Origin: Candidatus Thorarchaeota archaeon MP11T_1
Lineage (GTDB): Archaea > Asgardarchaeota > Thorarchaeia > Thorarchaeales > Thorarchaeaceae
Reading direction: 5' to 3'
Length of the DNA stretch: 64,000 bases
Assembly (NCBI GenBank): GCA_002825515.1
Contig: PJET01000002.1
Coordinates: 1 to 64,000, forward strand
The notes under the pieces were generated by a model. It searched no databases, had not been told where the DNA came from, and saw only the letters and a list, made by a program, of their open reading frames with translations. Positions 10,155-35,955 of the stretch are shown piece after piece. A program made the translations under genes and the position numbers. The number at the start of each line of letters is the position of its first letter. Position 1 is the stretch's first letter.

Positions 10155-10262
10155 GCCGAGGTAGTCAAGTGGCCAAAGACGGTGGACTCAAGATCTTAGG
10201 CATGACGCCCATGGGAAATCCACTCCCGTAGGGGTTCAGGAGTTCGAATCTCCTCCTCGGCA
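10155..10262 (+). tRNA. tRNA-Leu (CAA) with intron
   Basis: Type II tRNA with a long variable arm (CTCCCGTAGGGG). The acceptor GCCGAGG pairs with CCTCGGC, discriminator A, CCA encoded (10263-10265). The anticodon stem GTGGA/TCCAC encloses CTCAAG, a 25-nt intron at about 10193-10217, then A38. Anticodon CAA is at 10189-10191. The intron sits at the canonical archaeal 37/38 site. T arm is AGGAG-TTCGAAT-CTCCT. Confidence 0.93.
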
Positions 10263-14272: not shown

Positions 14273-15466
14273 TTGTCGGAACTGACTGCTCTAATCAATC
14301 CGGAGGCAATCCTTAGCCTAGACGGTATCGATGAGTTAGACCGAATGAGAGCAGAACCCAATCCATACTGGAATCGAGCAAGACTTGAGGTGACGTGGAA
14401 TCTTCCAGTTATGTCAGGATTACTCAAGAGCCCAAGGATATCTATTCAACCTATGCGCCAAGCTACACGGGAAGAACTGCTTTTGTTCCATGACCCCTCA
14501 TATATTGAAACCCTAGAGCTCTTTGGAAATATGGGGACCGCATTCTCTGCTCGTTTTGGGTTGGATACTAATGAATGCCCTATTTTCCCAGGTGTTGACA
14601 AATATGCAAGCTACATTGTTGGTGGAACAATAGACGCAGTAATGGGTGTGGCTGATGGCAAGTTCGAAGACGCTGTATCATTCTTTGGAGGCCTTCATCA
14701 CGCACTGGAAAGTCAAGCTGCAGGTTTCTGTTATTACAATGATTGTGTGGTTGCAATAAAGAAATACCAGCAAAAATATCCAGGAAAGAAGGTTCTCTAT
14801 CTTGATACTGATGCCCATCACGGTGACGGTGTTCAACATGCATTCTATAGTGATCCTAATGTCCTGACAATATCACTTCATGAGCTTAGCATGGGATTCT
14901 TTCCAGGAACGGGTAGAGCAGAAGAAGTAGGAATTGGTGAGGGAAAAGGTTACTCAGTAAACATACCACTACCCCCGTTAACAGATGATGTTGAGTGGTG
15001 GCGAGCTTTCGAGGATGTAGTTGTTCCAATCTGGTTGGCATACAAACCAGACTTCGTTTTCTGGGAGGTGGGTGCAGATGGCTACATGAATGACCCACTT
15101 ACAGATTTGATGTTGACTTATGACACATATCAACGGACTTCCAAGACTGTTCGTCAGCTTGTTCACTTAGGAACCAGAAAGTTAGTTGTAACAGGAGGTG
15201 GAGGGTACAACGCTGTGGCTGCAGCGAAAATATGGACTATCATATTAGCAGATATTGCAGACATTGCACTACCACCGACAATTCCAGCTGAATGGATAGA
15301 ACTATGTCATAAACATGGTTTTCAGGTTAAAAGAGGTGGATGGACTAGTAGACCTTTCAGAATGCCTAGTGACCAGTATCCGAAGATTAGGCGAGCGGTG
15401 GATGACACGATAGAGAAGGTAAAGAGTCTTGTTTTTCCAACCTTTGGTTTAGAAGACCAAATTTAG
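14273..15466 (+). CDS. Histone deacetylase-superfamily enzyme (AcuC-like)
   Basis: 397 aa zinc amidohydrolase of the arginase/HDAC fold. Catalytic signatures are GGLHHALES (His142, His143), LYLDTDAHHGDGVQ (Asp178, Asp180, His182) and VTGGGGYN near residue 320. Prokaryotic members deacetylate proteins (AcuC on acetyl-CoA synthetase) or polyamines. An acetyl-CoA synthetase gene is in this window at 30462-32462, a possible but unlinked substrate. The start is TTG at 14273, fixed by AGGAGG seven nt upstream. The stop interlocks with that of the convergent methyltransferase. Confidence 0.87.
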   Translation: MSELTALINPEAILSLDGIDELDRMRAEPNPYWNRARLEVTWNLPVMSGLLKSPRISIQPMRQATREELLLFHDPSYIETLELFGNMGTAFSARFGLDTNECPIFPGVDKYASYIVGGTIDAVMGVADGKFEDAVSFFGGLHHALESQAAGFCYYNDCVVAIKKYQQKYPGKKVLYLDTDAHHGDGVQHAFYSDPNVLTISLHELSMGFFPGTGRAEEVGIGEGKGYSVNIPLPPLTDDVEWWRAFEDVVVPIWLAYKPDFVFWEVGADGYMNDPLTDLMLTYDTYQRTSKTVRQLVHLGTRKLVVTGGGGYNAVAAAKIWTIILADIADIALPPTIPAEWIELCHKHGFQVKRGGWTSRPFRMPSDQYPKIRRAVDDTIEKVKSLVFPTFGLEDQI

Positions 15467-21811: not shown

Positions 21812-22681
21812 TTAGTATTTTCCAGCCTGTCCTTTAACAGAGTCCCTTGGGACTAAATTGAGTGCGTCGTGCTTACATGCGTGTCTACAAACCCCACAAC
21901 CGAAACACTTGTTCAAATCAACAATCACTCGGTTTACGGATGGCAAGTACCTTAATGCATTGAACTGACACATTCTTACACAGGACTTGCAGCCTTGACA
22001 GTTATCGATGTTTATTTCAATTAGGTACTCGGCTTTGTACACTGTACGCAGGTCAAAGTCGTTTCTGAGTCGGAGTCCGCCACATTCTGGGGTTTCACAA
22101 GAACAAATCGCATTAATATACGGAACTGGTTGGAACCAGACTGATGCAACATAGCCTTTCTCATTCTGTTCTTGTAGAGCCTGAATGGCCTCTTCACGAT
22201 CAAGGCGGTACTTCACATCCTCAGGGATATATCGAGTGTGTTTCTCAATCACTTCCGAGAGTTGACCGAAGTTGATACAGACCGCATCTTTAACTCCCCT
22301 TTGCATCCATCTACATACACAGTAGTTCTTGATGATTGGCTCAGCAGCGAGATTTCCCATGATATGTTGAGCGTCCTCTAATGGAATGACTTGCCCAAAG
22401 TGACCATCAGCTCTCACTGGATTCCTATTGTTCTTCTCACTGTGGATTTGACCTTCAACGACCTTTCGGATTACACGACCTATGATTGGCATTTGCATCT
22501 TATAGCCCAAACCAATTGAATTGAACCCCATTATTTTTCGAATGAAGAGGGTTTCCATATTTTTCCACTGTTCGTCTAGGTATTCCCTGGCATTGTACTC
22601 ATCTGCTAGTTCATCCTTATACAGTCTAGCGTTTTCATACCATTTGCCGCCGTCACCGTGTTTGAAACACCACTCGCACAT
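21812..22681 (-). CDS. Multi-Cys 4Fe-4S protein, probable electron carrier or oxidoreductase subunit
   Basis: 289 aa. The last third holds two 4Fe-4S motifs, CQGCKSCVRMC and CFGCGVCRHACK. Upstream are extra Cys clusters (MCEWCFKHG at the N terminus, NYCVCRWMQRG, and ICSCETPECGG) that may hold another cofactor. No catalytic domain is recognised, and the protein resembles archaeal 4Fe-4S proteins annotated only by their clusters. It pairs with the ferredoxin downstream. The electron donor is not encoded nearby. Confidence 0.72.
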   Translation of the reverse strand: MCEWCFKHGDGGKWYENARLYKDELADEYNAREYLDEQWKNMETLFIRKIMGFNSIGLGYKMQMPIIGRVIRKVVEGQIHSEKNNRNPVRADGHFGQVIPLEDAQHIMGNLAAEPIIKNYCVCRWMQRGVKDAVCINFGQLSEVIEKHTRYIPEDVKYRLDREEAIQALQEQNEKGYVASVWFQPVPYINAICSCETPECGGLRLRNDFDLRTVYKAEYLIEINIDNCQGCKSCVRMCQFNALRYLPSVNRVIVDLNKCFGCGVCRHACKHDALNLVPRDSVKGQAGKY

Positions 22682-22867
22682 TCTTATCGCCTGTTTCTTC
22701 GTTGGCTATTTCGACTAAAAATGCGATATTTAAGAACCACGTATTTATCTCAAATCAATCGGAAAAAAAGATTCATTCTAGAGAGGAAAAGCAATTCGTA
22801 TCAAGAAGGTTTTTTTCACAGGATGCAGAACTGAGATTTAGTTTCCCAAATTGGTAGCGTGTGCACA

Positions 22868-24970
22868 ATGATTAGACTGATAGGCGTTCTGACAATAGGC
22901 GGCGTACCTATCAAGTTTAAGAGCTCAATGGAAGCCGAAGGAGAACTGATTCTGGGACCATTGATTGAAGCCACCAAAGCATTGAGCGATATAATGGGTA
23001 GTGGTGAAGTCAGGAGACTGGCATTCAAAGACAACACATTGATTGTCACTGAAACTACCAAGGGATTCACTTTGGTGGCTTTAGTGAGCAAAGCAGAGGA
23101 CTATATGGACAGCCTACTTCGTGTGATTGCAGAGAAAATAGATGAATCAGAAATTCAATTTGCTGATGGATCCGTAAATGATGAACAAAAACTCATAGTT
23201 GAAAGGATTCTTAGTCCCTATGCCAGAGACCACATTGAGACCTCGTTTCCTGATGCACTTTCTAATACTTGGAATCCAGTCTATGAAATATTAAGAAACC
23301 ATGACCGATTTGCTGAGGTGATAAAAGAAGTAGATGATCTATTGGCTAGACCTGAGCCTGAAAAGAGGTGGACTCAATTCAAGGATGACTCCAAAGGGTC
23401 ATTGAATTATGCATTAGCTCATGCTTTGAGGGGTGAATTCGACAGAGCATGTGCAATTGCAGTGGATCTTGAAGGAGAAGTAGCAGGAATATTCAGTATA
23501 AAGATGGGGGCCTTGGCACACTCGATGACAAAAGCAGTCCCTCCAACTCTTGCTGAGTTAAGAAACATAGCTTCAAGGTTGCCAGATGATCATTTGTTCA
23601 CTGATTTAGCTAAGATTCTGGTGGGTTCTGTGGCTGGTGAGGTCATTCCTGCGGATTATTCTCGTGTCTTCAGAGAGTCAATGAGTCATTTTGAGTTCAT
23701 TGATGACGATGAGCATCTTATGCTTGGTTTTCTCTTCCTTGATTCTAGAGTAGTAGACTATCCAGAGTTTTCAAAGAAACTCATTGAGCTATACAAAGGG
23801 AAATCAGAGGTCTATTGTTCATTTATTGAGGCAATTCAAGACCGAAACAACATTTTCGCTAAACTGTATTCCATAACAAGTTATGACGGGTTTAAGGAAG
23901 AACTCGGCTTGTATAAAGCTCAAATAGCCAGTATTCTTGGGAGCATAACATGGGTAACAAATGAAGAATTGATGTGGGAGCTACAGAAGGAGGGAAAAGG
24001 GATTGAAATCGGAATCACAGCTTCGCTGAGGTTACAGAACTATGTCGCCGTACTTACCGCTTTGACTGAGTCACCGGTATTGTCGATTGGCGAGCGAAAA
24101 GGATTCCTTGAAGAGGTTCTCATGATCTATCGTGATTATTTCAGGATATTAATGACGACTAATATCCCTCTTTTCGCTTATACTTTGGACAGTGTTTTTC
24201 AGAGTCTGGGTGTCGCTCATGCAGAGTATTATTTTCTGTCTACTGGTGAAACAAGGAACCAACATATTCGACGGATGATAGAATTCCTAGGAGATATCTA
24301 CGAAACAATGGTCGAAGAATGGCCCAAAGCTCGTGTTCGATTCTCACTCTTTGTTGTGACCAATTCAATATCTCCCGTTCTCGCCCGAGCCGGAGAGCTA
24401 CCAGATGCTGAGATTCGACTGTTGTATGCAGCGATGCAACTCATTGACGTCAATACAATTGATGCAACCCAGATCACCCGACCCACGACATACACTACAT
24501 ATCTGGGCAACACGAATACTTCACTTACTGCGTTAGCATCAAGAGTGCTTAAGGACGAAGTTCGCATAAAAGTCCTCAAAGATGGTGTGAGCGTCGCATT
24601 AGATGTACAGGAGTGGTTCTTATCATTTGGTGAAGTGATAAGGGATGATGCAATGTCTGCAACTTACCATGCGTCTTTGATTGCAGATTTGGTGGATGTA
24701 GCTGAACTGAAGAAAATCGTTGACAAAGTTATTGATTTGAATAGAATTGTAGTACAAGACCCAAACAAGTTTGACTACGAGCTAGCAATGATGTCTGTTC
24801 CTCTCATGGACCTCTTATCGAAGTCTTGGAGAAGATTGGCTGATGAAAAATATCTTAGGCTGGCAAAGAGGACATATGATTCAGCCATTTTGGCTTGGAG
24901 AAAATATGGATTTCACGAGAAGGCAGAGAATTTCAAGAAGTCGTTTAGTCAATCCTTAGAGTCCAAGTAG
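22868..24970 (+). CDS. Longin/roadblock-like N-terminal domain fused to long helical protein
   Basis: 700 aa from the ATG at 22868 (a GTG at 22859 adds three residues). The first about 90 residues, MIRLIGVLTIGGVPIKFKSS, then LILGPLIEATKALSDIM, VRRLAFKDNTLIV, FTLVALVSKAEDYMDSLLRV, show the beta-beta-alpha-beta-beta-beta-alpha order of longin or roadblock folds that bind small GTPases. The remaining about 600 residues look like helical repeats without transmembrane segments. Asgard archaea carry many such domains; no specific role can be assigned. Its 3' end overlaps the SDR gene by 15 nt. Confidence 0.6.
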   Translation: MIRLIGVLTIGGVPIKFKSSMEAEGELILGPLIEATKALSDIMGSGEVRRLAFKDNTLIVTETTKGFTLVALVSKAEDYMDSLLRVIAEKIDESEIQFADGSVNDEQKLIVERILSPYARDHIETSFPDALSNTWNPVYEILRNHDRFAEVIKEVDDLLARPEPEKRWTQFKDDSKGSLNYALAHALRGEFDRACAIAVDLEGEVAGIFSIKMGALAHSMTKAVPPTLAELRNIASRLPDDHLFTDLAKILVGSVAGEVIPADYSRVFRESMSHFEFIDDDEHLMLGFLFLDSRVVDYPEFSKKLIELYKGKSEVYCSFIEAIQDRNNIFAKLYSITSYDGFKEELGLYKAQIASILGSITWVTNEELMWELQKEGKGIEIGITASLRLQNYVAVLTALTESPVLSIGERKGFLEEVLMIYRDYFRILMTTNIPLFAYTLDSVFQSLGVAHAEYYFLSTGETRNQHIRRMIEFLGDIYETMVEEWPKARVRFSLFVVTNSISPVLARAGELPDAEIRLLYAAMQLIDVNTIDATQITRPTTYTTYLGNTNTSLTALASRVLKDEVRIKVLKDGVSVALDVQEWFLSFGEVIRDDAMSATYHASLIADLVDVAELKKIVDKVIDLNRIVVQDPNKFDYELAMMSVPLMDLLSKSWRRLADEKYLRLAKRTYDSAILAWRKYGFHEKAENFKKSFSQSLESK

Positions 24971-25795
24971 ACTCGTAGTAGCATCCCAGAGCTGTTTCTG
25001 GAGTTCGGTATCATATGAGATCTCTGAGGTTTCAACCACTTCTTTCTTAGCAAAACACTTCCCAGTGATGCCTGCAACATCAGGCGATGAGGACACATAT
25101 ACTGATGTTTCAGCACCTTCTTTGGCACTAAGCTGGAAAGGTTTCATCATTCCAAACATAATTCGAGACATAACACTGCCAGTATTGCGTCCAAGATTAG
25201 TGGCCACAAAACCAGGAAGAACTACATTGACTGTTACACCTGTGTCTTTCAAACGACGAGCCAGCTCGTAAGTATGCATGACCACCATGAGCTTTGCATT
25301 TCTATAGACGTTCATGGACTTGTAGGATGACTCGCTCTGTAGGTCATCTAAATCTAATTTCGCCGATTTATGGAGTCCAGAAGAGAGATTAATTACTCTC
25401 GAGGGAACAGATTTTTTCAGCAAAGGCAATAGTTCGTGTGTAAGAAGAAATGGTGCAAGATAGTTTACAGCAAGTGTCATCTCGAATCCTTCAGCAGTTA
25501 CCTGTCTTTTGTTGAGGACAGCTCCCGCATTATTCACTAGGACATCTAATCGATCATACTTGTTCTTGAATTCCAGAGCCAGACCCCGTATCTCGTCCAT
25601 CGAGCACAAATCGTAAGTCATCAAGTCCACAGAATTGTTCTCACTCTGTTCGATTATGTCAGAACGGGCATCTTCACCCCTTTCCGTGTTTCGAACGACC
25701 ATAACAACTCTAGCGCCCATTTCTGCTAGGCCTAATGCTGTTTCTTTTCCAATACCGGAATTACTACCTGTTACAATACACACTTTGTCCTTCAA
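24956..25795 (-). CDS. Short-chain dehydrogenase/reductase (retinol dehydrogenase-like)
   Basis: 279 aa classical SDR. TGSNSGIGKETA is the nucleotide-binding glycine motif, NNAGAVL the structural motif, INLSSG carries the catalytic Ser, and YRNAK is the YxxxK pair. PGFVATNLGR follows as expected. An Arg-rich start of strand 2 (VVRNTERGE) suggests NADP(H). The substrate is likely a hydrophobic alcohol or ketone, as in the RDH11-14 group, but this cannot be verified. Confidence 0.87.
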   Translation of the reverse strand: MKDKVCIVTGSNSGIGKETALGLAEMGARVVMVVRNTERGEDARSDIIEQSENNSVDLMTYDLCSMDEIRGLALEFKNKYDRLDVLVNNAGAVLNKRQVTAEGFEMTLAVNYLAPFLLTHELLPLLKKSVPSRVINLSSGLHKSAKLDLDDLQSESSYKSMNVYRNAKLMVVMHTYELARRLKDTGVTVNVVLPGFVATNLGRNTGSVMSRIMFGMMKPFQLSAKEGAETSVYVSSSPDVAGITGKCFAKKEVVETSEISYDTELQKQLWDATTSLLGL

Positions 25796-34068: not shown

Positions 34069-35955
34069 ATGAGTAAGGCAGATTGGACTCAGGAGTACAA
34101 GAGCAAGGTTACAAACGCCTCAAAGGCGATTAGAGAGATAAAACGAGGCGCAAGAATCTTCTTAGGAACTGGATGTGGCGTTCCCTACCATCTCGTTCAG
34201 GAACTAGCAAAGCACGCAGACAAAATGGCAGACAATGAGATCGTGCACCTTCTTACTCTCGGAGACACACCTTCTGCAGATTCAAAGTTTCAAAATCAAT
34301 TCCGGCATAATACATTCTTCGTGAGTTCAAACATTCGTGAGGCAGTTTCCGAAGGACGAGCAGATTACACGCCAATAATGCTCTCAGACATTCCGCAACT
34401 TTTCAGGCAAAAGAGAATGCCTCTTGATGTCGCTATGATTCAAATTAGTCCGCCGGACCGTAATGGATACAGTTCCTTAGGCATCTCAGTTGATATAACA
34501 AAGTCAGCAGCTGAAAGTGCTGACGTTGTCATTGCTCAGGTAAACGAAAGAATGCCAGTTACTCATGGTGATTCATTCGTAGATGTTCGCGATATTGACT
34601 ATTTAGTTCCCTATAATGAGCCTTTGAGAGAATTTGAGGCGGCAGAGATTGATGATACAATTGATAGAATAGGTCATTATGTGGCTAGAATTGTTGAGAA
34701 TGCATCAACACTAGAGCTTGGGATAGGAGCGTTGCCGCAATCTGTCTGTAACAATCTACTGGAAACTGGAGTGCAAGACCTTGGGATACATACTGAGATG
34801 TTCAGTGACAGTTTAATTCCACTTATTGAACAGGGAGTAGTCACAAACAAGAAGAAGTCGATTCATCGTGGCAAGGTTATTGCTAGCTTTGCTATGGGTT
34901 CGGAAAAGCTCTACAACTACATTGATGATAATCCAATGTTCCAATTCCATGATACAGCATATGTGAACGATCCCTATGTCATCGGACAAAACAAAAAAAT
35001 GATTGCTATAAACTCAGCTCTAGAGGTGGACCTTACTGGACAGGTCTGTGCAGACTCTATAGGACATAGATTCTATAGTGGTATTGGTGGGCAAGTTGAC
35101 TTTATTCGTGGTGCAAAAAGGTCACAGGGTGGCAAAGCTGTAATCTGCATGCTCTCTACGGCAATGGATGGCGAAGTTTCGCGAATTGTGCCACGATTGA
35201 GTGAGGGGGCTGGAGTTGTTACAACTCGTGGAGATGTTGATGTTGTCATCACAGAATACGGTCTCGCAACACTACATGGAAAGACTATTCGAGAGCGTGT
35301 TCTGTCACTCATTGCTGTTGCGCATCCCAATTTCAGGAACGATTTGCTAGAAGCTGCAAAAAAGATGCATTATGTATTCGAGGATCAAGTTCCATTCCTT
35401 GTGAAAGGAACATACTTTGCGTCAGAGTATGAGGTGCAGGAAAGTTTCAAGACTGGGGAAGGCCCAGTTGAAGTACAGTTTAGACTGATAAGACCTGATG
35501 ATGCTGACAGGATCAAGGAACTTTTCTATGACTTGAGTGAAGAAAGCATCTACTTCCGATTTCTCACACCACTGAAATCATTGCGTCGACAGACATTACA
35601 GGATTTCTATAATGTTGACCAGGCAAGTGATATCAGTGTAGTAGCAGTTGTGAAGTCTGATGAAGAGGGAGAAACCGAGAAGATTATTGGTGCTGGAAGA
35701 TATCTGTTGAATAGGAGTACAAATGAAGCTGAGTTCGCGCTTCTTGTACAAGATGAATACCAAGGCATAGGCATCGGTACATTCCTATTGAATCATCTTA
35801 TGAAAATAGCTAAGAGTAAAGGAGTTGAGGCCTTTATTGCCTATGTACATCCTCAAAATCAACCAATGATTCGATTCATTCACAAGACTGGGAAGGTCGT
35901 TGAAAGCAAACTTTCGATACAAGATGATGAATATCTATTCCGACTCAAACTGTGA
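34069..35955 (+). CDS. Acetyl-CoA hydrolase/CoA-transferase fused to GNAT domain
   Basis: 628 aa. Residues 1 to about 450 are an AcH/CoA-transferase (Cat1/4-hydroxybutyrate CoA-transferase type): ISPPDRNGYSSLGISVD, LELGIGALPQSV, and NSALEVDLTGQV with the likely catalytic Glu319, then GIGGQVDFIRGA and ITEYGLATLHGKTIRER. Residues about 470-628 are a GNAT acetyltransferase with FRLIRPDDADRIKELF and acetyl-CoA loop YQGIGIGTFLL. The fusion suggests that the acyl-CoA product feeds, or is regulated by, acylation. ATG at 34069 follows GGGGAAATTTGAG. Confidence 0.88.
   Translation: MSKADWTQEYKSKVTNASKAIREIKRGARIFLGTGCGVPYHLVQELAKHADKMADNEIVHLLTLGDTPSADSKFQNQFRHNTFFVSSNIREAVSEGRADYTPIMLSDIPQLFRQKRMPLDVAMIQISPPDRNGYSSLGISVDITKSAAESADVVIAQVNERMPVTHGDSFVDVRDIDYLVPYNEPLREFEAAEIDDTIDRIGHYVARIVENASTLELGIGALPQSVCNNLLETGVQDLGIHTEMFSDSLIPLIEQGVVTNKKKSIHRGKVIASFAMGSEKLYNYIDDNPMFQFHDTAYVNDPYVIGQNKKMIAINSALEVDLTGQVCADSIGHRFYSGIGGQVDFIRGAKRSQGGKAVICMLSTAMDGEVSRIVPRLSEGAGVVTTRGDVDVVITEYGLATLHGKTIRERVLSLIAVAHPNFRNDLLEAAKKMHYVFEDQVPFLVKGTYFASEYEVQESFKTGEGPVEVQFRLIRPDDADRIKELFYDLSEESIYFRFLTPLKSLRRQTLQDFYNVDQASDISVVAVVKSDEEGETEKIIGAGRYLLNRSTNEAEFALLVQDEYQGIGIGTFLLNHLMKIAKSKGVEAFIAYVHPQNQPMIRFIHKTGKVVESKLSIQDDEYLFRLKL

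Follow-up and report, generated by a model that had tools for sequence, protein, structure and literature searches.

A predicted longin domain joined to a helical solenoid in a single-chain protein family of Asgard archaea

The longin-solenoid gene and its predicted protein

The window analysed here, a 64,000-nucleotide stretch of DNA from Candidatus Thorarchaeota archaeon MP11T_1 (contig PJET01000002.1), carries at 22868..24970 a gene for a 700-residue protein with a predicted N-terminal longin domain followed by a predicted helical solenoid. The gene and its parts are listed below; residue numbers refer to the protein, A1 comprises 42 of the 120 relatives listed by the protein search, A4 is a wider profile of 33 rows, and families II and III are relatives of family I, that of the window's protein, compared in a later section.

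22868..24970, + strand: longin-solenoid gene, 700 codons plus stop, with an alternative in-frame GTG start at 22859
22868..23233, + strand: predicted longin domain, residues 1-122, order b1-b2-a1-b3-b4-b5-a2-a3 (AlphaFold2 models, structure matches, profile link to Asgard longins)
22898..22909, + strand: conserved GGVP turn linking strands b1 and b2, residues 11-14 (conservation in A1 and A4)
23234..24967, + strand: solenoid of 29 predicted helices, residues 123-700 (AlphaFold2; homologous in families II and III)
23996..24247, + strand: best conserved solenoid stretch, residues 377-460 (mean entropy in A1)

The open frame on the + strand extends over 22859-24970 from a GTG, the first possible start, and over 22868-24970 from an ATG; the ATG is the favoured start, being the point at which the alignment of most A1 relatives begins. 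Openness by chance is excluded, since a 700-codon frame has a probability of about 7e-19 at the local base composition. The ratio of nonsynonymous to synonymous substitution rates (dN/dS) against the 90%-identical L014 is 0.070 over the whole gene (dN 0.053, dS 0.752), with 0.045 for residues 1-122 and 0.075 for the rest; the corresponding dN values of 0.029 and 0.058 mark the longin as the slower-evolving part. Two further pairs give 0.078 (L001) and 0.067 (L003), while synonymous sites are saturated in a fourth (L005), which yields no ratio. The longin-solenoid gene is under purifying selection, and the coding assignment of the original prediction, made from the letters and their open frames, is borne out. 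That prediction had also offered no name for the fusion, and rightly: no Pfam model reaches its cut-off for the full protein, NCBIfam gives no match at E <= 0.1, and no PDB chain matches the 700-residue protein by sequence. By these searches the protein family is absent from both Pfam and NCBIfam and without a name. The highest mean hydropathy of any 19-residue stretch is 1.29, with no obvious membrane helix, so a soluble protein is likely.

In the full-length AlphaFold2 model (mean predicted local distance difference test score, pLDDT, 88; predicted template modelling score 0.88), the N-terminal elements are strands at residues 2-8 and 15-17, a helix at 22-42, strands at 49-52, 57-62 and 68-73, and helices at 78-93 and 105-118. 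When residues 1-130 are folded alone, the order is unchanged at a mean pLDDT of 75, the five models ranging from 53 to 75. Both models thus contain, at moderate confidence, the longin order b1-b2-a1-b3-b4-b5-a2-a3 without a leading helix, and the domain ends near residue 122, further than the 90 residues first proposed. The structural match to solved longins covers the whole domain. Its top matches are SNARE, adaptor, coat and Rab guanine nucleotide exchange factor (GEF) longins, and PDB entry 8yqg, known here from its row in the fold search alone, is also matched. Within the GGVP turn, G11, G12 and P14 show no variation in A1 and are conserved at 93% or above in A4.

The remainder of the protein is predicted to be all-helical, as had been anticipated, with 29 helices between residues 127 and 693 and no strands beyond residues 1-73 except single short bridges. 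Among the matches listed, the closest structural matches of the helical part are generic solenoids. The expectation that this part is of adaptor type finds no adaptin signature in its favour: an adaptin trunk is not among the structure matches listed for the full-length model, the query that included the solenoid, a result that excludes nothing, and an adaptin Pfam match is not among the 25 families listed for 33 members. Matches of those members to other solenoids or families, namely TPR_4 (E 0.14 in 1/33), the Neurobeachin solenoid (4/33, best E 0.0072) and C5-epim_C (6/33, best E 0.01), are treated as noise. Conservation within the solenoid peaks at residues 377-460, where mean entropy in A1 is 0.59, the remaining parts of the solenoid having values of 0.85-1.36.

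Identity of the N-terminal domain

The N-terminus had been described as longin/roadblock-like, and sequence models bear on the two folds unequally. PF19036, which models the N-terminal one of the longins in FUZ, MON1 and HPS1, is matched by 4 of the 23 family I N-termini collected as set A6 (best E 0.0024) and by 9 of the 34 rows of the wider set A5 (best E 9.5e-7), and the roadblock model PF03259 gives weak matches in 2 of 23 and 8 of 34, respectively. A5 includes stand-alone longins, contains one row (P0123) that duplicates that of the window, and covers 11 of the 19 longin loci, with L067, L071, L076, L077, L079, L081 and L082 among the eight left out and only the longin stretch of the others used. 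Pfam alone is insufficient as proof of a longin, and leaves the matter undecided, because the unrelated Mob1_phocein family scores about as well (2/23 in A6, best E 0.0027); a coatomer gamma subdomain also comes near (1/23 in A6, E 0.0089). Alongside Mob1_phocein, two further observations count against the functional reading proposed below, which builds on a longin: the window's own N-terminus is matched by no Pfam model, and residues 11-50 of the full-length model reach block-mean pLDDT values of only 46-61.

Another link runs through other Asgard longins. The family I N-terminus aligns by hhalign with six Asgard longins at 97.9% over 76 columns, and one of these six, L073, passes the PF19036 cut-off (28.0 vs 26.1 bits). 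The sequence relation to accepted longins therefore holds indirectly, by way of these six proteins. The A4 profile further retrieves, in other Asgard genomes, the same domain either standing alone or joined to other parts. Specifically, L078 fuses the longin to an Arf-like GTPase (Arf E 1.2e-17, PF19036 4.9e-5, Clat_adaptor_s 3.3e-4; A4 match E 8.8e-4), L068 joins it to tetratricopeptide (TPR) repeats, and L076 joins it to apparent membrane helices, as judged by eye.

Several of the longin-bearing proteins have architectures of their own. L076, L077, L081 and the cut L079 encode proteins of about 380 residues whose N-terminal part is hydrophobic and whose C-terminus is longin-like. L093-L100 (681-703 residues) belong to another Asgard family, in which an N-terminal longin precedes what appears by eye to be a long coiled coil. 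L109:1214-2590 (-) and L110:626-1996 (-) combine a longin-like N-terminus with a CxxC-rich stretch as in zinc ribbons.

The roadblock alternative is decided on topology. In its favour, a search of the PDB by sequence with A5 places roadblocks first (7f8f, E 1.6e-4; 9jue, 7.7e-4), ahead of TRAPPC4 (E 0.055) and MON1 (E 0.24), a ranking that counts against rejecting them; family I rows alone again find 7f8f best, but at E 0.66. Roadblock/LC7 proteins, including those of Thorarchaeota and MK-D1, share the core fold at a Foldseek probability of 1.00, but the query template modelling score is about 0.5. They start with a helix, whereas the first element of the window protein is the strand at residues 2-8 in both AlphaFold2 models, with no leading N-terminal helix and with an extra helix at the C-terminal end of the domain. 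Topology thus supports, on the predicted models, a longin rather than a roadblock; the longin half of the first description stands and the roadblock half is rejected. Neither an N-terminal fold unrelated to both nor a well-described family was encountered.

Relatives, distribution and related families

The protein search finds 167 relatives at E <= 0.001 among 7997 scored candidates, and a search of the protein database with the A1 profile finds 167 again. Most of the 120 relatives listed are about 700 residues long and align end to end, and their named organisms are Thorarchaeota, Sifarchaeia or Promethearchaeota; a 99% relative (P0002) belongs to a Candidatus Sifarchaeia archaeon and a 90% relative (P0003) to Candidatus Thorarchaeota archaeon SMTZ1-45, which supports an Asgard origin. 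The A2 profile, which contains distant rows, gives 2 among the candidates listed and is uninformative on distant relatives, and a pattern scan detects no viral copies. A scan of genome contigs locates 14 loci, 13 from Candidatus Thorarchaeota and one from an entry labelled 'archaeon'.

The distribution among Asgard genomes had been proposed at the outset as a check. Among 227 genomes of the phylum, A1 matches 29 at E <= 1, 28 of them at E <= 1e-30. A4 matches 57 of the same genomes at E <= 1, most of the additional ones being confined to the longin, and its matches span at least 690 of 698 positions in 24. Matches are present in 21 of 47 genomes of the Thorarchaeota (the class of G001; 18 full length), in 4 of 8 of the class of G077 (3 full length), and, at E <= 0.001, in 6 of 10 of the class of G178, where full-length family I occurs in 3. 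A single match row is found in 19 of the 21 matched Thorarchaeota genomes; G078 has two full copies, and G178 has one full and two shorter ones. Partial cases include G074 and G191, which stop at contig ends, and G004, which is split into two pieces on two contigs. In G212 (L045:1287-1619, -) only residues 585-697 are left, with an internal TAG, between two deacetylase-superfamily genes, and this copy looks like a degraded remnant. A 464-residue member in G178 (L039:8727-10118, -) matches profile positions 2-372 and 633-696 and seems to lack part of the solenoid.

Two further families extend the architecture. Family II comprises four proteins of 721-733 residues from the class of G178 and aligns with family I by hhalign at 99.8% over 678 columns (E 4.7e-29), the longins alone giving 97.6%. 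Family III comprises three proteins of 525-644 residues, one open at its 5' end, and its alignment with family II reaches 98.9% across 580 columns. As controls, the longin proteins of about 690 residues with apparent coiled coils reach 20.5% over 126 columns and the TPR-longin proteins 68.1% over 43 columns, in both cases only within or just beyond the longin. By these profile comparisons, families I, II and III are one superfamily. Because families II and III align over their full length and the controls only at the longin, the longin and the solenoid have stayed together; barring transfer from one class to another, the fusion predates the divergence of these classes. Families II and III would by homology be helical as well.

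Proposed function and significance

Longins serve in eukaryotes as docking modules for SNAREs, adaptors, coats and Rab regulators. By analogy, and with roughly even confidence, we propose a soluble cytosolic scaffold, in which the longin would dock a small GTPase or, alternatively, a partner of the longin or roadblock type, while client proteins would be held by the solenoid, chiefly at the candidate client site of residues 377-460; the client assembly would thereby be positioned according to the site and timing of GTPase activity. The GTPase-docking half draws on analogy of fold and on the homologous longin L078, which is fused to an Arf-like GTPase, and the client-binding half on general solenoid behaviour and on the conservation at 377-460. 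The longin fold, the slower evolution of the longin, the low hydropathy and the pairing kept in all three families are likewise consistent with this scaffold. We infer the contact with a GTPase or partner, the client binding and any membrane-related role.

The gene neighbourhood offers this proposal little company. Immediately upstream lies a ferredoxin-type Fe-S gene (21812-22681, -) pointing away, and downstream a short-chain dehydrogenase gene (24956-25795, -) converges on the longin-solenoid gene with a 15-nucleotide overlap. Comparison covers 31 loci, with repeat-genome loci and several short ones (L035, L036, L038 and L042 among them) excluded, and the contigs are cut, so that absence of a neighbour is uninformative. 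Against GTPase docking stand the following: no constant partner gene occurs over these loci, the flanks differing by lineage; a P-loop filter retains only 3 of 268 neighbouring open reading frames; the sole one of the three scanned is Arf-like (L037) and lies three genes from the longin-solenoid gene; and longins bind non-GTPase partners too. In one lineage, a 648-residue gene without a Pfam match stands directly upstream on the same strand (L006:6323-8266, +; L059:11173-13116, -).

A possible but less than probable alternative takes up this near absence of GTPase neighbours: the longin would dock a non-GTPase partner, through self-assembly or by binding another protein, and the protein would be a scaffold without a trafficking role, for example for a nearby enzyme of the histone deacetylase superfamily. 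Such a gene is found near the longin-solenoid gene in 11 of the 31 loci, on the same strand in 12 of 13 copies, including the following two, both matched by PF00850.

Window 14273-15466, + strand: histone-deacetylase-superfamily gene
L039:7769-8710, - strand: histone-deacetylase-superfamily gene

The distance is 16 nucleotides in L039, which belongs to another class, 239 in the remnant-bearing L045, 497 in L013, 881 in L063 and 2.6 kb in L060. In the window and five other loci, however, the gene is about 7.4 kb away with intervening genes, and the whole neighbourhood is common to Thorarchaeota loci, so that the case for close linkage depends on a small number of loci, including one remnant.

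Improbable, in our estimate, is a single-chain adaptor or coat unit, in which an Arf-like GTPase would bring a polypeptide containing both longin and solenoid to membranes. The best structure matches include the longins of AP sigma, AP mu and zeta-COP, and in the full-length model several alignments of sigma, zeta and Ykt6 extend from residue 1 to residues 587-631, which hints that the C-terminal helices may pack near the longin; SNARE longins nevertheless score slightly higher than adaptor ones, the matches listed include no adaptin trunk or adaptin Pfam family, and neither membrane nor GTPase evidence points to such a unit. Bolder still, and very doubtful, is the idea that this Arf-recruited unit was a pre-eukaryotic coat or adaptor in one polypeptide, which three Asgard classes would have inherited from their common ancestor. 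A GEF or GTPase-activating protein resembling FUZ-INTU, Mon1-Ccz1 (single- to triple-longin Rab GEFs) or DENN proteins is very unlikely, since the model holds a single longin followed by helices only, with no second longin or DENN part such as those proteins carry, and family I members give weak Pfam matches.

The proposed scaffold also differs from known longin proteins in its architecture. The SNARE longins Ykt6, Sec22b and VAMP7 carry a SNARE motif and a membrane anchor, whereas here neither is present and a 578-residue solenoid follows instead. In AP complexes and COPI, the longin of a small or medium chain (zeta-COP included) is separate or is followed by a mu homology domain, and the solenoid belongs to another subunit; here both parts lie in the same 700-residue chain, for which the listed matches reveal no adaptin relation.

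Three other features of the window are recorded here.

1-117, - strand: archaeal 16S rRNA gene, of which the 5' end lies within the window and the rest beyond its edge
10155-10262, + strand: 108-nucleotide Rfam tRNA match (47.3 bits) not reported by ARAGORN, which may contain an intron
34069-35955, + strand: a GNAT acetyltransferase domain encoded in one open reading frame with acetyl-CoA hydrolase/transferase domains

Longins and AP-complex domains of Asgard archaea have already been published (PMC10933270, PMC4917890, PMC10307638, PMC11291895). In the portions of these accounts available, the longins are predicted domains that stand alone or are fused to Arf-like or Rag-like GTPases or roadblocks (PMC10933270, PMC4917890), and homologs are given for Loki and Odin (PMC10933270); the homologous domain described here is fused to a solenoid. 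An archaeal longin-solenoid protein is not described in the listed titles and abstract openings of the literature searched, whose scope excludes supplements, most subscription journals and preprints. The family extends longin homologs beyond Loki and Odin to Thorarchaeota and two more classes, although other papers may hold such cases. It defines a protein family held by neither Pfam nor NCBIfam, and as a single-chain, purifiable object it offers a concrete means of asking what longins did before vesicle traffic and whether the longin-solenoid pairing of adaptors and coats has older roots.
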